Source of the DNA: Fistulifera solaris | Taxonomy: Eukaryota > Bacillariophyta > Bacillariophyceae > Naviculales > Stauroneidaceae | Direction of reading: 5' to 3' | NCBI GenBank assembly: GCA_030295235.1 | Contig: AP026162.1 | Location: 2,108,001-2,172,000 of the forward strand | Length of the DNA stretch: 64,000 nucleotides | Shown: positions 3,840 to 54,039 of the stretch, one piece after another | How positions within the stretch are numbered: the first letter of the stretch is position 1 | Layout: each line of letters begins with the position of its first letter | Position numbers and translations under genes: made by a program | The notes under the pieces: generated by a model | Told to the model about the DNA's origin: nothing | The model's input: the letters and a program-made list of their open reading frames with translations, nothing else | The model's database searches: none

Positions 3840-4256
3840 ATGAAGTTGTCTATTTCGTCGGTGTTCTTGCTCGTTATCTCCTTTCGCCAAAAAGGATCGT
3901 GTGGTTTCATGTCGCACGCCACCTCCCCTCCCGCTCCCCTATCAGCCGCCACAAACAAAGAAGAAGAATCTCCGGAGATTCCTCTTCTACCGGCAGCTGA
4001 TCCGAATTCCAATATTCCCCGCATCAATTTGGGCGAGACGATACGATTTGAAGAGATGGGACCGATTATTCTCAATTTGGATGGTTCGACGCGTCGTATC
4101 GCCAATTGGGATCAAATGACAGAACACGAGCGACAAGTTACCTGGCGTCGTATTAGTAAGCGCAATGAGGAACGAAGACAGCTTCTATTGCAGCAGCGGC
4201 AAGAACAGCAACAGCAACAAGAATCAGATGCAGCGGAAGCTGAGAAGGAGCTTTAG
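3840..4256 (+). CDS. Small secreted or plastid-targeted protein, conserved in algae
   Basis: 138 residues, intact, no intron. The ATG at 3840 begins a clear signal peptide (MKLSISSVFLLVISF) that ends near GSCGF. A small residue followed by Phe at the cleavage site is the usual plastid bipartite signature in diatoms, so plastid import is plausible. The mature part carries a compact block (IRFEEMGPIILNLDGSTRRI, then ANWDQMTEHERQVTWRRISK) that I associate with small uncharacterised algal proteins, followed by a Gln-rich helix. No enzyme motif is visible; function unknown. It converges on the ChaC-RCC1 gene with 66 bp between stops. Confidence 0.7.
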   Translation: MKLSISSVFLLVISFRQKGSCGFMSHATSPPAPLSAATNKEEESPEIPLLPAADPNSNIPRINLGETIRFEEMGPIILNLDGSTRRIANWDQMTEHERQVTWRRISKRNEERRQLLLQQRQEQQQQQESDAAEAEKEL

Positions 4257-4322
4257 GCATAAGCTCGCGTTGGCCGCCTTTTGTAGAAAAGAAATTAGTA
4301 GTAGATTAGATAACCACCAATA

Positions 4323-6444
4323 TTAGTTAGAAACGACTCTCATTGCTATTACGTGTGCACCTCCAGCGGCCACCCTCAGACGTGATGTGTCTTCGGGAGT
4401 ACCGGGAGTGAGAGGGACCGATGCACCTATCGCTCGAGTGAGCTGATGCGCATCTTCCGTAGACCCATCGGCCAAGTTCCCGTGTTCGTTCCAACCACAA
4501 CTCCAGATGCGATCTTCCGCATCGACCAGTATTGTAGACTCCGAACCGCAATCCAGTGATACAACGGAATGATCCTTGAAGAGTAACCTGGGTCGTGTGA
4601 CACAACTTGTATCCGCCAGACCCAGTTGGCCTTTGTCGTTGCGTCCCCACCCCCAAACTATTGTTTGATTGTCGGCATTTTGCGCTAGCACAACGGTATG
4701 AGACCACCCGCAATGTATCGCTTGCACCGTCCACGTGCTATCAACGTCCACCAGTCTCGGTGTTGGGTCTGACCTGTCAACTGATTGTCGACCCAATTGA
4801 CCGTATTGGTTGTCGCCAAACGTCCAAACTCGGCCTTTCGCATCCAAAACTACTGTATGTCGCCTTCCGCATGCTACTTGAATGACTTTCGAGTCGCTGG
4901 GCGTCCAGGAACTCCCTCTAAACATTGACCAAATTTGCGGCATCCAAAGGTAATGAGTTGGCCGTCTTTGGTGACACATGCGGAGTGAAAGAGTCCAGCG
5001 GCTACCTCCTTGAATATAACATCTTTGTAGAGTGCAACTTCCGTTGGCTCAAATATGGAAATAGCTTTCCTTTCGATCTGTCCGTTCACTTGTCCTCGGC
5101 TGTTGTCGCCAAAACCAAACAATTTTCCCGTTCCCCGTTCCAGGACCAGCGTATGAGAAAAGCCCAGTGCCACTTGGTCGACCACTATTTGTGCAAGCGG
5201 CCGAATCGGGTGGATCGGTAACGACGAGTCTGACACGACATTGTCGCCTCTCCCCAGTTGTCCATGTTCGTTCCATCCCCACAGATACAATTGACCTTCT
5301 TGGGTCAAAAGCGCACTGTGACCACCTCCCGCGTAAATTCCCGTGGCTACATCGGACCGTCGGGAGACGCACAACACGGATTCGGTCATGACATGTGCGT
5401 CTTCTCCTTGGTGCAGATTACCGACCGCATCCTTTAGAAGCAATTGATTATGCTGATTGGAACCCGCTGCCACAAAGAAGAACAACGTGGCATCGCGTTG
5501 AAACGATTTGGTCATGGATGAGAGAATGTAAGTATCATCAAAGAGTTGTTCCATTTGAGACGCAGTTGTCGATGATTCTAAAAAGTCATCCAATTGATGT
5601 AAATATTCATGATTGGCGCCACTGGGACCGACGGCGACCGACATGATGGCTGGGAATGGGTGAGGTGTTTACAGCGCTAGCCACTTCGAACAATCCATAT
5701 TCTACGTACCTGCAGCAAACGGTAAATAACGCAACACTCGAGGCCATATGGCGGGATTGTCCAAAGTCCCTCGATACAACAAGGCTTGCAATACTTGACC
5801 CGTTTGATCGTCAATGACATCAATTACATCCCTGGCGTAGCCCTTCCGAAACGAGTGAGTACAAGTTGAGCTCCTTAATTAAGTGAGTTTGCTTACATGA
5901 CTTACACCCTTTTCTCGAAAATCCAATTCTGCCAGACATTCGTCCACGAGTTCCGACGGCACTTCGTACACCAATCCTTCGGTGAACGTCGGCGAGTCGT
6001 AATCCAGCGATCGCAGTTGCCGCACTTCGTCATCTTTCAACAAGGTACACACAATTCCGGGAAACGACGGGACTCCTCGATGATCGGTACTTTTTGCGCC
6101 CAACATCGACGGTATCCTCTTGCCTTCGCGGGGCGATGGTGGACCGACGGATGCGCCAGAACACCCGATCCTGGATTCCAACACAAGGATCCGTATCCAA
6201 AGAGACGCAAACAACCGTGATTCTGTTCGATTAGCTCTTGAACGGCGGCATGTTCTGGTACAATTCCACCAACATATATTTGTGCGACTGGATCCCAGAT
6301 CGGCGTGCCTTCTTCTATGTTGAGTTGCATTGGACGAGAGGTCGTCGTCGACAGCGGAGGATGATTCGTCCAGGCAATTACCAGCGCGGGGAATGTAGCG
6401 ACAATTAACACGAAGCGGTAAAACAGATATTTCGATCCAAGCAT
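4323..6444 (-). CDS. ChaC gamma-glutamylcyclotransferase fused to RCC1 propeller
   Basis: One gene of three exons: 6444-5906, 5842-5710, 5649-4323 (introns 5843-5905 and 5650-5709, both GT-AG and phase-consistent). The N-terminus is a signal peptide (MLGSKYLFYRFVLIVA) ending in VIAW. The ChaC domain follows: LRLFGYGSLCWNPG, STDHRGVPSFPG, LDFREKGGY (the conserved Glu is present) and GPSGANHEYLHQL. That last ChaC signature lies in exon 3, in the same open frame as about seven RCC1 blades (LYLWGWNEHGQLGRG, VWTFGDNQYGQLGRQ, CGWNEHGNLADG), so this is a fusion. ChaC enzymes split glutathione into 5-oxoproline and Cys-Gly; RCC1 propellers bind proteins or act as exchange factors. Two one-base losses break the frame: the T run at 6091-6095 and near 4924. 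Corrected length about 666 residues. Plastid or secretory location is inferred. Confidence 0.8.
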
Positions 6445-7152
6445 AAGGAGAAATGCGTGTATTTTCTTGTTATCGGACTCCTTCTTTGAAGAATGGCCGT
6501 CATCATGATCGAAAATAAAGGGGAGCAAAAATGGGCCGATATGCCCTTGCATTTTTGGCCGAAAAGCACGTTTTAGAAACAATACATCTATAAAGTACCG
6601 GAAAAGTATATGTAAGCATAAGCAGTAGTGCGAATCTCGGAGCGGTACTTCAGTACCGGCTTTCGTCGCAGCGTGGTTGCGAAATGTCACTGACAGACTG
6701 CACCCACTTTGAGACTCGTGACTTGCAGATTACAAAGTTGCACACTCACATAGACTGTAGCTCAACTTTCGCGGGACACACTATTTTTTGATAAAACGAT
6801 TGCACGAAAAAAACGAGAAACACAAACTCATCAACAAAACAAGCATTTTATTTGGGAGCACTCAACATCTCGAGTGAGTACACAGCAGCAAAGTTCATTG
6901 AAAAGAAGTAACAGAGTGTGTTACCCTAGGTACACTAGAGTGCTACTGGTACGTGCGCTGAAAGGCTCTAGAGAGACCGTTTTTGATACCGCTACGATCT
7001 CAGTATTGCTTCAACAGTTACACATTTGTAAGTACAATCCGTAAAAAACTTGCCTCCAAACCTGCATTTGCATTTTCTAAAAATGACGGTGACGAACAAA
7101 ACATTCTCTTATCATGATGTTATAACAAGAATCATCAACCATTACTGAAATT
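6445..7152. other. Divergent intergenic region ChaC-RCC1 / pol kappa
   Basis: About 700 bp between two divergent genes. The ChaC frame stays open upstream to 6690, but the Met at 6444 starts the signal peptide, so the extra part is probably 5' UTR. Otherwise I see nothing beyond AT-rich sequence. Confidence 0.5.
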
Positions 7153-9197
7153 ATGATGAATCCCTACAAACGAAAAAGACTGAAAGAAGAGTCCCCGGCG
7201 ATGGAGGAAACAACAACGGCAGACGCCTCCGCACTCGTCATCGCGGCGGCCGACAAGGCCGGCATGGATGGCATCGATCGCCGTCGCATTGATGCCATCA
7301 TTTTACGCGAATCCGGCAATTCACTCTATATTCAACAACAAAAGAGAAGAGACGAGAAAGTCAATGAACGAATCGTTGCGATGAAGAAGAAATTACAGAA
7401 TCAAATGACGCTTCATCCGCCTCACGAAAGTCTCCCTTCCATCGACCGCATGTTGATCGAATGCATTCAAAAACGACCCAACAGATCCACGTGTGTGGTT
7501 GTGGACATGGATATGTTTTACATGGCTTGCGAATTGTTGACGCGACCCGAGTTGCACGACAAACCCGCCTGTGTCGGTGGTGGCATGATTCTGACGAGCA
7601 ACTATCCCGCACGAAAATACGGTGTCCGCAGTGCCATGGCGGGTTGGATTGGGGATGCTCTTGTCCGCGAATTGTCCAATGGCACGGAAGAATTGATTCA
7701 TGTTCCGTCGGATCATCCAAAATACGCGCAACAATCACAAGTAGTACGGTCCGTCTTGGCCGAATACGATCCGCAGTTGCGTGCGTACAGTTTGGATGAA
7801 GCCTTTCTGAATTTGGGACCGTACTTGGCGTGTCATCTTCTGCATCCCGAATGGCCTCATGAACAGATCAGTAAGACGTTGATGGAAGATGAAGAGGATG
7901 GAGATGTGAAAGCTTCGTCCGAAGGCGAATACGATGACAACAGCCCAGACGACGTTTCTATACAAAACGAGAGCGAAGACAAATTGTCTTATCTAGAGAC
8001 ACTAGGTCAGTTTTCCAATCATACTTGCTTGGAAGCAGCGGGAACGATTTTGACAGATATGCGACAGAAGGTGTTTGAACGCACGGGTGGTTTGACGTGT
8101 TCCGCTGGTTTGGCACCGAATTTCATGTTGGCCAAGATTGCCAGTGATCAAAACAAACCCAATGGACAATGTCTCGTAGCCAGTGATCAAGGTTCGGTAC
8201 GCGAATTTCTTCACCCAATGGCCACGCGCAAAGTATCCGGCATTGGTCGCGTGACGGAGAAAATACTGAAAGCGTTTGACATCCACACCGTCGAACAAAT
8301 GTACGAGCAGCGTGCGTTGATCCAACACATCTTCACCCCCGTGCAAGCCAATTTTTTGTTGCGAGCATCGGTGGGATGCTCCAGTTCTGATAGCTTTCTG
8401 GAAGAGGAACAAGAGGAAAGCAAAGGAGTTGGTCAAAAGGAATTAGTCGCGAACGAACCTTCCGTCCCGGCGATTCGTGGAACGAAATCAACGCTCGACT
8501 TGAAGATATAGGACGCCTGTTATCGAATGACATGCAACGGAAAAACTTTTGGGCACACACCATTACTGTCAAAGTCAAATTGCACACATTCGACGTCTTG
8601 TCACGGGCACGGACGTTGCCGCGTGGTGTGTTTGTGCAGTTACCCGAAGATCTGGTCCGGCACGCGACGGAACTGTTGGCGGAGGTGAGACACGAATTCA
8701 TGTCTAGTCCGGAGCACCGTTCCAAGCCCTTTTCCGTTCGCTTGTTGGGCATTCGCTGCAACAACTTTCGTCACGAGCAGGAAACGGAAAGCGTCGGGTG
8801 TGATCAGTTGAATCTCGATCAATTTCTTCTCCCCCGATCGACGTCGCCGGTTCTCCGTGCCGCCGCAGCCCAGGAAGGGATCAACGCTTGTAGTGAATCA
8901 AAAATGGAAGAAATGTTACACGACGACCTAACAGTCAAAGCGGAGGAAACGAATGACCATGACGACGCAACTCAAAATGTCGTACCGCAGGACGATTTGA
9001 CAACCACCAAGGACTGTGAACCAGTCACCGCTATCTGTCCCGTTTGCGGACTATCTCTTCCATCCAATGACAATCTAGTGGTCAATCAGCACATTGATAC
9101 TTGTCTCAGTGGACGCGCGGTCCGAGAAGCCATCCGAGAGACGCGCCATCCGAAAAAATCCCAACTCGACTACTATTTTGCCAATCGTACAGAATAA
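7153..9197 (+). CDS. POLK: DNA polymerase kappa (Y family) with UBZ and PIP-like tail
   Basis: Translesion polymerase of about 681 residues once one frame break is allowed for. Catalytic motifs are in place: VVVDMDMFYMACE (about 115-127), RAYSLDEAFLN (about 212) and TCSAGLAPNFMLAKIASDQ. The little-finger start (GISRERTF) appears only if the A4 run at 8435-8438 is A5; that single change joins the two open frames 7153-8511 and 8440-9197. The C-terminus has one UBZ-type finger (CPVCGLSLPSNDNL...NQHIDTC), and the last residues KSQLDYYF resemble the non-canonical PCNA box at the end of human pol kappa. An acidic insert sits at about 245-275. It should bypass lesions on ubiquitinated PCNA. Its stop is 19 bp from that of RPN8. 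Confidence 0.9.
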
Positions 9198-10293: not shown

Positions 10294-10692
10294 TGTGTTT
10301 GTGAAGGTTTATATTGTATTACAAATAATTGATTTAGATTAGAAGAGGAGTGCTGATGTTGTTGTGCTGCAAGTAAAAGAATGAATATCATTATCGTCAT
10401 GGCCGCGTTTGTTGTTTCGTTGTCGATCGTCTCGCTTCTCCATCGATTGGGGTATCCGTTTAAAAGTACACGCGACACCCAATTCAAAAGTAGCGTGACG
10501 ATGTCGTGTCCTTATGTATTCTTTCCAAAAATGTTGCACCGGTACCCGTTACACTTGCGTCGATCGCTCGAAAGCGGAGGGACATTATTTTTTCGACGCG
10601 AGCAAAAACCGTGTCACCGCACTGCAATCATTTTGTTGACCAGTACCATTGCCTGTTTTGCCCAAAAGAAAACCAAACTAGAACAAGTAAAG
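10294..10692. other. Divergent region RPN8 / glycosyltransferase
   Basis: About 400 bp. The glycosyltransferase frame is open back to an ATG at 10381, but the first part has no family resemblance and I place the start at 10693, just before the membrane anchor. No other structure seen. Confidence 0.4.
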
Positions 10693-12362
10693 ATGGACGA
10701 CGACAATGAAAAATCAAAACGATCCAAATTCGTGAGCCAAAAGCGTCGGAAAGCTTCATCGACGAGCATTGTTCCGACGGCGATCGTTTGTTCCGTGACC
10801 GATCATCCCGGGGCCATTGAACTCGGAGTCATTCTTTGTATTTTAATCATTGCGCTGTATCTCTTTGGCTTTTATGAAGCCGTCATTTCCCTTCCGCAAA
10901 TTCGTGGAGATCCGTTTCATTTGCATCATCAAGCGTCACTCCGTGGTTTAAGTCAAGCACAAAACGTTCCACACTACGAAGAAGATGTAGGTGCGGCTCC
11001 AAAGAAGAAGAAGGCAGTGACAATTCCACCGGGCCAATGGCCCGTCAGTATTCGGGATGAAGAATTCGAGACGATTCTACATCCCGGTGATTTGACAACA
11101 CAAATGAAAGTGCCGAAACTGTGGAGTTATCCCATACACAACAACGAACTCATGACCCGCGATACGGCACTCCAAATTGGATCGTGCGTTGAACCCGATG
11201 AACACGGTCAGTACAACCGCGGCGAATCCTGTCCTTTGGAGAAACGTACCATCTTTGTCGGCATTGCATCGTATCGTGATTTTGAATGCCGTTCGACGGC
11301 GGAATCCATTTTTTGAGGGCGAAACATCCCGAACGCATTCGCATTGCGGTCGTGGATCAAATTGTCGATGGCGAAGATGCCTTGTGCAATGCACCATTAT
11401 TGCCGTGTGACACGCATCCGGAACAAGGATTGTGCAAATACAAAGACCAAATTGATGTGTACCAAATGGATGCGGCTTTGTCGATTGGACCCGTCTTTGC
11501 CCGGCACATTGGCTATCGCATGTACCGGGGCGAATATTATGCGACACAGTCGGATGCGCACGTGACCTACACACAAGACTGGGATGCCGATATTATACAA
11601 CAATTGGAAGTCACCAAAAATGAAATGGCGGTTTTGTCGACCTATCTCACGGACGTCCAAGGTTCCATTGATGAACAGGGTCATTCCTTGCGACATACCC
11701 GGCCCATTATGTGCAATACCTATTACGAAGGAGGGATCCAAGGAATGCATCTGCGACACGGGTCACAGCCGGAGCGCACGCCGTCGATCCAAGGATCCCC
11801 GCAATTGCAGCCATGGTGGGCGGCCGGTTACTCGTTTTCGCGGGGACACTTTGTGGTCAATGTTCCGTACGATTACAATCAGCCCATGATCTTTCAGGGG
11901 GAAGAAATGTCCATTGGTATTCGTGGCTTTACGATCGGTTACGATTATTACGCACCCGAGCGGAGTGTGTGCTTTCACCACTACGCGGTCGGCAAGAATG
12001 CCGAAGTCCGCAAGAAAGTGCACCATTTTTGGGAGAATACCAAGTTCAGTGGCACGGGCAAGAAGGCAATGGCGCGATTGTTGGGCATTGTGCACATGAA
12101 TCCCGAGGTGGATCCGCAGACATGGGATCATGCGGACGAAGACATTTACGGCATTGGAGGTGTCCGCACACCGGAAAAATTTTACGAAACCTTTGGAATC
12201 AATGTCAAGGAAAAGAAAGTGGAAGGGCATTTGTGCAGCTTTGTGGATACGGGCGGGAAGATGCATTACGAATTTTCACCATTCTTACGAAGTGATGGTA
12301 TGGGCGTCGACTACTCGAAGATCAATTACAAGTTCAAAGATCCCCGACCGAACGAAAAGTAA
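10693..12362 (+). CDS. Type II membrane GlcNAc-type glycosyltransferase
   Basis: About 556 residues after correcting one base. A basic cytoplasmic stretch (KRSKFVSQKRRK) precedes a single anchor (GVILCILIIALYLFGFYEAV), giving type II topology in the Golgi or ER. The luminal domain reads RTIFVGIASYRDFECRSTAE, RIAVVDQ, then a DXD-like aspartate centre (QSDAHVTYTQDWD), QPWWAAGYSFSRG and QGEEMSIGIRGFTIGYD. This is the layout of the GlcNAc transferase family that includes Skp1 hydroxyproline GlcNAc-transferase. The frame breaks at the T6 run 11309-11314; with T7 the two open frames join as TAESIFLRAKHPER. The donor and acceptor cannot be told from sequence. An upstream in-frame ATG at 10381 is possible but less likely. 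Confidence 0.85.
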
Positions 12363-52059: not shown

Positions 52060-53601
52060 TTAGCTCACTAGATAAGGGCTGGATAGCGTCGCAAAACCAG
52101 AAGCTACACCGCCTTCATCCACATTACTAAACTTGGTGCGCAACAAGAAACCTCCGTATTCATTGTGCACGACGTCTCCGTCACAAGAGGCAACAATCGT
52201 ACCGAAACAGCCCAACTCGGAAATGGAATCCCCAGATCCTTCAATACGACCGGATCGTAGCAAGATGGCTTTCTGTTCGGGAGGGAAGAGACGCTCCATT
52301 AAGATATATTCACCCAGCGATTTGTCTAACTTCATCTTCTTGTCACTGCCCACTTGCACGTTGGCCCTGATCTTCTCCGCTAAGTTATCTCCGTAAAAAT
52401 TATAACCACCGCCTTCACGTTGCGGTTTCAAAACGTATTTTGCTTGTCCACCTTCCAGCACTTTCTGCAAGGCATCCAAATCGGCACCTGTGGCGTCCTC
52501 GCCCAAGCTGTACAACCCAGCAAAAGCTTTTCTCATGCGCAGCGCCATGTCCGCATCATCAATGAAACGTTCCAAAACACCGGGCCGAGCCAACTCTTGT
52601 TGCACTTTCTTCGTTCCCGCCAAGTGATAGCCCAAATTGGGTGATTTGGTCGCACGAGACTTTTCCAGCATGGCTCTCGCTTGCCATTCGACACCATCGT
52701 AGCCATCGGGGTAATCGGTGGGCGCATACCCGGCGCGATAATACACAATCGCAATCTCTCCTTCCGCAATCGAAATCGCACCCGTTTCCTCGTCCACGAT
52801 CAGTTCCGCACGCAGTTGCCGCAAGGATTTGCGGACTACCATGATATTGTAGCGTTCAAAGAGATTGAATTCAAGCATGCGTTGATCGACGGTGTTGCTT
52901 TCACCTTGTTGTACTACAAAAAGTACGATAGCCTGTTTGACACCAAAACGTTCCTCATAGCGTTTCATAGCGACGTTGAATGCTGCCGGCAAACATTCCA
53001 TGGTAGGATTGATGGGGACGGCGTCGTTTTCAGTCGACGACGATGATGCGTCTCCAAGCACTGCACGCTTATTCATGTCCATGAAACTCTGAACAGAACC
53101 CGCAAAGCGTTGACACAAAAACAAATGCAAGGAAGCCACTTTCGAAGATAATCCCGCAAATGATGAAGCGATCGTATTGAGTTCGACTTGTTTGATATTG
53201 TTTCCTTCGTGTAACATGTAATCACTGCGATGAATTCCGAGACGATCGGCTTGGGCCGCGTGTTGGTTCGGTATATCGACGTAAATCTCCCGATACAGCC
53301 GCAACAGTTGAGCTGTATAAGGATCCGCTTCGGACACTCCTCCACCCAGTGTCTTTTGTAAGAAGGCACCATCTCGACTGATGCGATCGACGAGAAGATT
53401 GAAGGACGGCGCCAACGATTGGGCTTGCTCAAAGGCCGCACGCGGATACGCATTGGGCAAGAGCGATATCGGTGCGCATTCGAAATACGAGTATTCGGTA
53501 GTTCCGTCCGTTCGTTTCTTTTCGACTTGCACGCCATTGGCGGAAGCATATGCGTTGGCGGCGGATGCGAGAGAATCGAGGGGCAAATTGAAATCGGCCA
53601 T
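52060..53601 (-). CDS. GSS: Glutathione synthetase (eukaryotic type)
   Basis: Intact 513-residue single-exon gene. Family marks: PISLLPNAYPRAAFEQAQSL, SDYMLHEGNNIKQVELNTIA, FVVQQGESNTVDQRMLE, VYYRAGYAPTDYP, VLKPQREGGGYNFYGDNLAE (the Gly-rich ATP lid) and EYILMERLFPPEQKAILLRS. The end, LLRTKFSNVDEGGVASGFAT, closes the active site. It joins gamma-glutamylcysteine to glycine, the last step of glutathione synthesis. No targeting sequence, so cytosolic. About 46 kb away lies the ChaC-RCC1 gene for glutathione breakdown; linkage is probably coincidental. Confidence 0.95.
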   Translation of the reverse strand: MADFNLPLDSLASAANAYASANGVQVEKKRTDGTTEYSYFECAPISLLPNAYPRAAFEQAQSLAPSFNLLVDRISRDGAFLQKTLGGGVSEADPYTAQLLRLYREIYVDIPNQHAAQADRLGIHRSDYMLHEGNNIKQVELNTIASSFAGLSSKVASLHLFLCQRFAGSVQSFMDMNKRAVLGDASSSSTENDAVPINPTMECLPAAFNVAMKRYEERFGVKQAIVLFVVQQGESNTVDQRMLEFNLFERYNIMVVRKSLRQLRAELIVDEETGAISIAEGEIAIVYYRAGYAPTDYPDGYDGVEWQARAMLEKSRATKSPNLGYHLAGTKKVQQELARPGVLERFIDDADMALRMRKAFAGLYSLGEDATGADLDALQKVLEGGQAKYVLKPQREGGGYNFYGDNLAEKIRANVQVGSDKKMKLDKSLGEYILMERLFPPEQKAILLRSGRIEGSGDSISELGCFGTIVASCDGDVVHNEYGGFLLRTKFSNVDEGGVASGFATLSSPYLVS

Positions 53602-54039
53602 GAGAGCAGTAGTTGGCTGATGGAGCCGCCCAAGTATACCGATGAAAAAAAGAAAAGTATGTCAAGGAAAAGACTCGGTTAATGCGAAGAAACATACTGT
53701 CCTTTTGGGAAGAACAGCCTAAAAAGATCTTTGTCGTTTGGTTTGTGTTTTTATTACAAACATTCATCGACGCAAATGAAGCGCGGATCGATGTTCTCGG
53801 CGGTTCGACGTTATTCATTCGACGCAACGTAAATTTTAGTGACAAAAAGTTACTATACCACGTTATGTTGGTTATGCAGACCGCTACCAGACTAGCCTTC
53901 ATTATTGTGCCAACTTGCCAAAATGATTCATTGAATTTACACGGTCGAAGTACAATAAGCACTGTTTCCAATACAAGTAGTCAACTCATTTTTAACTTGG
54001 ATGATTACTCTTGTAAATGATTATTTGTCGATGAAAGAA
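53602..54039. other. Intergenic region before repeat array
   Basis: About 440 bp; short frames only. TTTTGGGAAGAACAGCC and neighbours show no family resemblance. Confidence 0.4.

Follow-up and report, generated by a model that had tools for sequence, protein, structure and literature searches.

Evidence for a ChaC glutathione-cleaving domain fused to an RCC1-like propeller in a nuclear gene of the diatom Fistulifera solaris

Glutathione turnover of the ChaC2 type has been described for small cytosolic enzymes (PMC7022552; PMC12756093). Human ChaC2 itself is a short cytosolic protein (a chain of 184 residues in the PDB entry 6k95), in which Tyr6, Gly7, Ser8, His39, Arg40, Glu74, Glu83, Tyr87, Tyr109 and Tyr144 are named as conserved or catalytic residues (PMC7022552). 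Another ChaC-domain protein, RipAY, is activated by thioredoxin (PMC12756093). RipAY belongs to another organism and has another role than the diatom protein described below; the likeness between the two would be a ChaC enzyme activity that depends on a protein partner. The RCC1-like domain (PF25390, PF00415), the other component of the diatom protein, is shared with UVR8, RPGR and HERC1/2. To our knowledge, RipAY has no propeller, and none of UVR8, RPGR and HERC1/2 carries a ChaC domain.

Fistulifera solaris is an allodiploid diatom (PMC13276009) for which 42 chromosome pairs were reported (PMC5935921). A guide target of 23 bases, published for both of its apt homoeologues (PMC13276009), has two exact matches in the genome analyzed here, one on contig C38 and one on C39. 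In the assembly that we used (61 contigs, 51.7 Mb) the contigs are apparently paired. The window, i.e. the whole stretch of 64,000 nucleotides that was analyzed (positions 2108001-2172000 of contig C1), aligned along its length with contig C2. The gene described here appears to belong to both subgenomes of one hybrid genome. The homoeologue on C2 (locus L011) retains the start, both introns and the stop; the two copies are 86.5% identical across the gene and 82.5% across the wider block.

In the window we observed a three-exon gene on the minus strand (6444-4323) with a hydrophobic leader, a ChaC domain and an RCC1-like domain (Table 1). In the reading that we prefer, with a probability of roughly three in four, one nuclear gene makes one protein composed of the leader, a ChaC glutathione-specific gamma-glutamylcyclotransferase that would cleave glutathione, a short constrained linker and an RCC1-like propeller that would serve as a binding module, while the change of frame inside ChaC is an error of the assembly. 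The observations behind it concern the gene structure, the conservation of two copies, the coding constraint and the catalytic residues; the activity, the targeting and the role of the propeller are what we infer.

Table 1. Features of the ChaC-RCC1 gene (positions are those of the window).
Feature	Position	Strand	Remarks
Hydrophobic leader MLGSKYLFYRFVLIVATFPALVIAW	6370..6444	-	Possible signal peptide
Exon 1	5906..6444	-	ATG at 6444-6442; hydrophobic leader, N-terminal extension, first part of ChaC with GYGSL, STDHRG and the equivalents of human ChaC2 Glu74 and Glu83
Frame change 1	6091..6095	-	Run of five A inside ChaC, common to both copies
Intron 1	5843..5905	-	63 nt, GT-AG, phase 0
Exon 2	5710..5842	-	Middle of ChaC (GYARDVIDVIDD...LLYRGTLDNP)
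Intron 2	5650..5709	-	60 nt, GT-AG, phase 1
Exon 3	4323..5649	-	Tail of ChaC (GPSGANHEYLHQL), linker, RCC1-like domain; stop TAA at 4325-4323
Frame change 2	about 4913..4925	-	Inside RCC1, window copy only

Both exon junctions that an earlier note on this DNA had drawn, 5906|5842 (phase 0) and 5710|5649 (phase 1), stood up to comparison, with the GT and the AG of each GT-AG pair kept in the homoeologue. The alignment of the two copies showed that intron 1 keeps its donor GTAAGT and its acceptor AG, while the donor of intron 2 is GTACGT in the window copy versus GTAAGT in the homoeologue. A phase model, whose sole input is how the substitutions between the two copies are spaced, marked 5644-5706 as non-coding at intron 2, and 5875-5900 alone at intron 1. 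The earlier note had also held that exons 1 and 2 supply the rest of ChaC in phase; it had placed the introns correctly, but exon 1 spans two reading frames.

For the homoeologue, with exons joined and a single X put at the ChaC frame change, the Pfam ChaC family (PF04752) matched residues 83-263 with an E-value of 2.5e-29 (103 bits against a cut-off of 21). The three ChaC pieces of the window copy, searched singly, had E-values of 0.0078 (16.7 bits), 2.1e-8 (34.9 bits) and 0.013 (16.0 bits); the first and the last of them fall below the cut-off on their own. The best match of the ChaC part among PDB sequences was human ChaC2 (6k95, E 6.1e-18), and the domain aligns with ChaC2 (PDB 6k95, 6ky0, 6ky1) over chain residues 3-149. 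All ten of the ChaC2 residues listed above are present in this alignment in the homoeologue (10/10), and the same ten are present in the window copy. Because the catalytic residues are conserved, we propose a glutathione-cleaving chemistry: the domain would most likely split glutathione into 5-oxoproline and Cys-Gly through the Glu-dependent cyclisation that is usual for such enzymes. What the diatom protein has beyond the ChaC2 plan is the leader, the N-terminal extension, an inserted stretch of roughly twelve residues and the C-terminal propeller.

The ChaC matches found in the genome were confined to this gene pair, both in a family search, where 2 of the 4 candidates scored were matches, and in a protein search, where all 8 ChaC pieces lay within the two copies. 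These searches treat each exon separately and give scores to the top candidates alone, so they could overlook a ChaC that is distant or rich in introns. Elsewhere in the window, about 46 kb from the ChaC fusion, there is an open frame for a eukaryotic glutathione synthetase (52063-53661, minus strand; Pfam GSH_synth_ATP, E 1.2e-100).

The RCC1-like part of the homoeologue (residues 287-663) matched the Pfam profile WD40_RLD (PF25390) nearly end to end (positions 4-363 of 363; E 3.2e-70, 237.7 bits against a cut-off of 150). In the window copy the pieces match RCC1 repeats of Pfam, and the two halves of the RLD scored 115 and 138.3 bits alone (cut-off 150). Among PDB sequences the propeller part had its top matches in UVR8 (6xzl, E 6.8e-37) and RPGR, whereas RCC1 itself (1a12), the protein of Ran nucleotide exchange, was a weaker match (E 2.7e-24). 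Against the preferred reading, the phase model called non-coding the stretches 4256-4435 in both copies, 4721-4908 in the window copy and 4721-4788 in the homoeologue, despite the Pfam RCC1 match.

We found that the tail of ChaC, the linker and RCC1 follow each other in a single open frame. Counted from stop to stop, it is 264 codons long in the window copy (5668-4877) and 451 codons long in the homoeologue; in both cases intron accounts for the first few codons. As the earlier note had stated, the signature of the end of ChaC, GPSGANHEYLHQL, shares this frame with RCC1 repeats. In the phase model a single coding phase extends over 5643-4909 in the window copy, and over 5643-4789 in its homoeologue. 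Values of dN/dS between the two copies were 0.22 for exon 2 (44 codons), 0.41 for the tail of ChaC (20 codons), 0.10 for the linker (39 codons), and 0.28 and 0.45 for RCC1 before (180 codons) and after (195 codons) the break of the window copy.

Could these be two overlapping or neighbouring genes, one for ChaC and one for RCC1? ChaC proteins and RCC1 proteins are usually found apart, and translation of a separate RCC1 protein could begin at an in-frame methionine of the linker (SQMEQLF) that both copies have. On the other hand, no stop codon separates the domains, ChaC lacks a stop of its own, the homoeologue is open from the tail of ChaC through RCC1, and the linker evolves under constraint in the frame that the domains share (dN/dS 0.10), which makes two separate genes unlikely. 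As had been argued before, the ChaC domain includes the ATG at 5644; this ATG is not conserved, the homoeologue having CTG at the same place. Altogether we consider two genes quite improbable; a second, shorter product could be made from the conserved methionine of the linker. As judged from sequence, there is good support for one gene in which ChaC is fused with an RCC1-like domain, namely two homoeologous copies, conserved introns and a coding constraint that runs through the linker. The fusion proposed in the earlier note stands on these grounds, although the note had overlooked the two frame changes.

The first of these changes concerns exon 1. The frame of the ATG at 6444, which contains GYGSL...GYRRCWA, ends in a stop after 135 codons, and the STDHRG...DFREKG part is read in a different frame. 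In both copies the phase model switched coding phase at 6073/6074 with no non-coding gap. Read each in its own ChaC frame, the stretches before and after the change had dN/dS of 0.12 (48 codons) and 0.04 (61 codons), a pattern that vanishes in the other two frames. Such strong constraint on both sides indicates that the ChaC domain is selected as protein. An intron in exon 1 was rejected as the cause of the change, as the homology to ChaC resumes within about ten bases.

We regard a run miscounted by the assembly as the probable cause of the change inside ChaC and as its best explanation, because this assembly often errs in the lengths of A or T runs. Three copies of an organelle-like dnaK region (L020, L021 and L022) differ only in the lengths of such runs. 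In a wider comparison of about 6.7 kb (present twice in C60 and once in C61, by inference the plastid) there were 0 substitutions in 6757 aligned columns, while the A/T run lengths varied. For runs of 3 and longer, classed by the longest copy, the fractions of A/T runs that varied were 5/270 at length 3, 1/115 at length 4, 5/40 at length 5, 9/19 at length 6, 11/13 at length 7 and 2/2 at length 8; for C/G runs they were 0/41, 0/6 and 1/1 at lengths 3, 4 and 5. Two of the three copies were short at 4 of the 19 length-6 sites, so one and the same miscount can arise more than once. In all three copies the dnaK gene of the organelle-like region is broken over several frames. A nuclear HSP70 gene changes frame at a place that its two homoeologues have in common, and at a second place in the C1 copy only.

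Within the window, four stretches with a phase switch in both copies were picked by eye. Three of them (at about 8.4, 11.3 and 22.1 kb) have the frame change at or near an A/T run, and the fourth resembles a splice donor. Against a pure run-length account, only 18 of the 55 one-base differences between the copies, counted in well aligned context across coding and non-coding parts of the window, fall in A/T runs of 5 or more. Many of the 55 may be true divergence.

Two of the genes concerned can be named. In that of a Y-family DNA polymerase (7126-9194, plus strand) the Pfam domains IMS and IMS_C are in different frames; the change, at about 8.43 kb in both homoeologues, is a probable assembly error. 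In that of a GlcNAc-type glycosyltransferase (10357-12359, plus strand) positions 90-350 of the 352 of the profile match within 11286-12359, and the frame changes at about 11.33 kb in both copies, with T runs of unequal length. Several genes look broken in this assembly, probably through miscounted run lengths, and care is needed in their interpretation.

If the change inside ChaC were real, ribosomes could cross it by programmed -1 frameshifting, which both subgenomes would have conserved and which would yield a product of 135 residues as well as the long fusion. The change is indeed common to the two copies, whose identity is 86.5% in the gene and 82.5% in the wider block, the sequence is constrained on either side of it, and the 34 bases around it (6105-6072) are identical between the copies. 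The canonical slippery heptamer of -1 frameshifting has the form X XXY YYZ, and the site, read in the upstream frame, does not fit it. Nor did we find a stable downstream structure, since the 91 nt that follow folded no better than shuffled sequences (z of +1.36 and +0.56, pseudoknots left out). Also, run-length errors do occur in this assembly, and A/T runs lie at or close to the places where three other genes of the window shift frame in both copies. We thus give programmed frameshifting very little credence.

One fusion gene with a miscounted run inside ChaC remains the preferred reading. Against it, neither copy has an unbroken reading frame in this assembly: the ChaC frame is interrupted in both, and in the window copy so is that of RCC1. 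There a stop at 4876-4874 ends the frame of exon 3, and the RCC1 repeats further on are read from a different one (5048-4323), whereas the homoeologue stays open at this position. The claim that RCC1 is in one frame with ChaC is thus true of the first repeats, but the later ones are out of frame in the window copy.

The break in RCC1 lies outside any long run, so a run-length error explains it poorly; it is either an assembly error or a real deletion. With a real deletion the window copy would be decaying while the other copy stays open, which is compatible with the preferred reading. The restriction of the change to the window copy, its position outside a long run and the rise of dN/dS from 0.28 before the break to 0.45 after it all point in this direction. 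However, dN/dS is below 1 in both parts of RCC1, and the break is not unusual, because 31 of the 55 one-base differences, a count in which real and erroneous ones are mixed, fall in runs of 1-3 bases. We consider decay of the window copy unlikely.

The leader is hydrophobic in both copies, with the Kyte-Doolittle mean over 12 residues reaching 2.57 (window copy) and 2.60 (homoeologue). It ends in ALVIAW in the former and in ALIFCW in the latter. Of the signal peptide with an Ala-Trp end that had been suggested, the hydrophobic leader and the Trp are conserved, but the Ala is replaced and the homoeologue has Cys-Trp. The first 70 codons had dN/dS of 0.92 between the two copies, which amounts to free evolution; presequences often evolve freely. 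In secretory and plastid-targeted proteins of diatoms, the cleavage site of the signal peptide is followed by an aromatic residue. By its sequence features, the leader fits a signal peptide, perhaps one for plastid targeting, and the protein may be directed to the secretory path or the plastid. A small convergent gene nearby (3840-4256, plus strand), whose stop is separated by 66 bases from the stop of the ChaC fusion, has a hydrophobic start followed by CGFMSH, which we take to resemble a diatom plastid-targeting signal.

A collection of viral contigs contained no relatives of the ChaC-RCC1 protein. In contigs of prokaryotic genomes 34 loci matched, chiefly to the RCC1 part. Three of the 34 alignments started within the first 20 residues of the query, i.e. 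in the tail of ChaC (residues 8, 16 and 18), and the others covered the linker and RCC1. The ChaC part searched against these 34 loci (tblastn, E up to 1) gave one match only, of 15 residues with E 0.06, in L064. Both scans find close relatives only, as they are seeded by short exact peptides. With no ChaC-RCC1 relative found in the viral and prokaryotic contigs, the conservation of the fusion rests on two copies in one hybrid genome. A search of NCBIfam with the joined protein returned no family. In the literature on ChaC with RCC1, gamma-glutamylcyclotransferase and diatoms, judged mostly without full text, we found no description of a ChaC-RCC1 fusion. Two papers that came up as sources on ChaC (PMC7050145 and PMC11135702) were set aside, as the word chac in both belongs to an author's name.

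As to function, the propeller is most likely a binding module that would place or regulate the enzyme. A further possibility, which we put forward tentatively and hold to be less probable than not by a clear measure, is that the sole ChaC of this diatom is the leader-bearing fusion, and that its RCC1 propeller binds a partner and so sets where or when glutathione is destroyed outside the cytosol, in the secretory path or the complex plastid, unlike the stand-alone cytosolic ChaC2. If the fusion is true, the propeller could be used as bait for partners, and a fused propeller in the seemingly sole ChaC of a photosynthetic cell would offer a direct handle on the placing and control of glutathione turnover.
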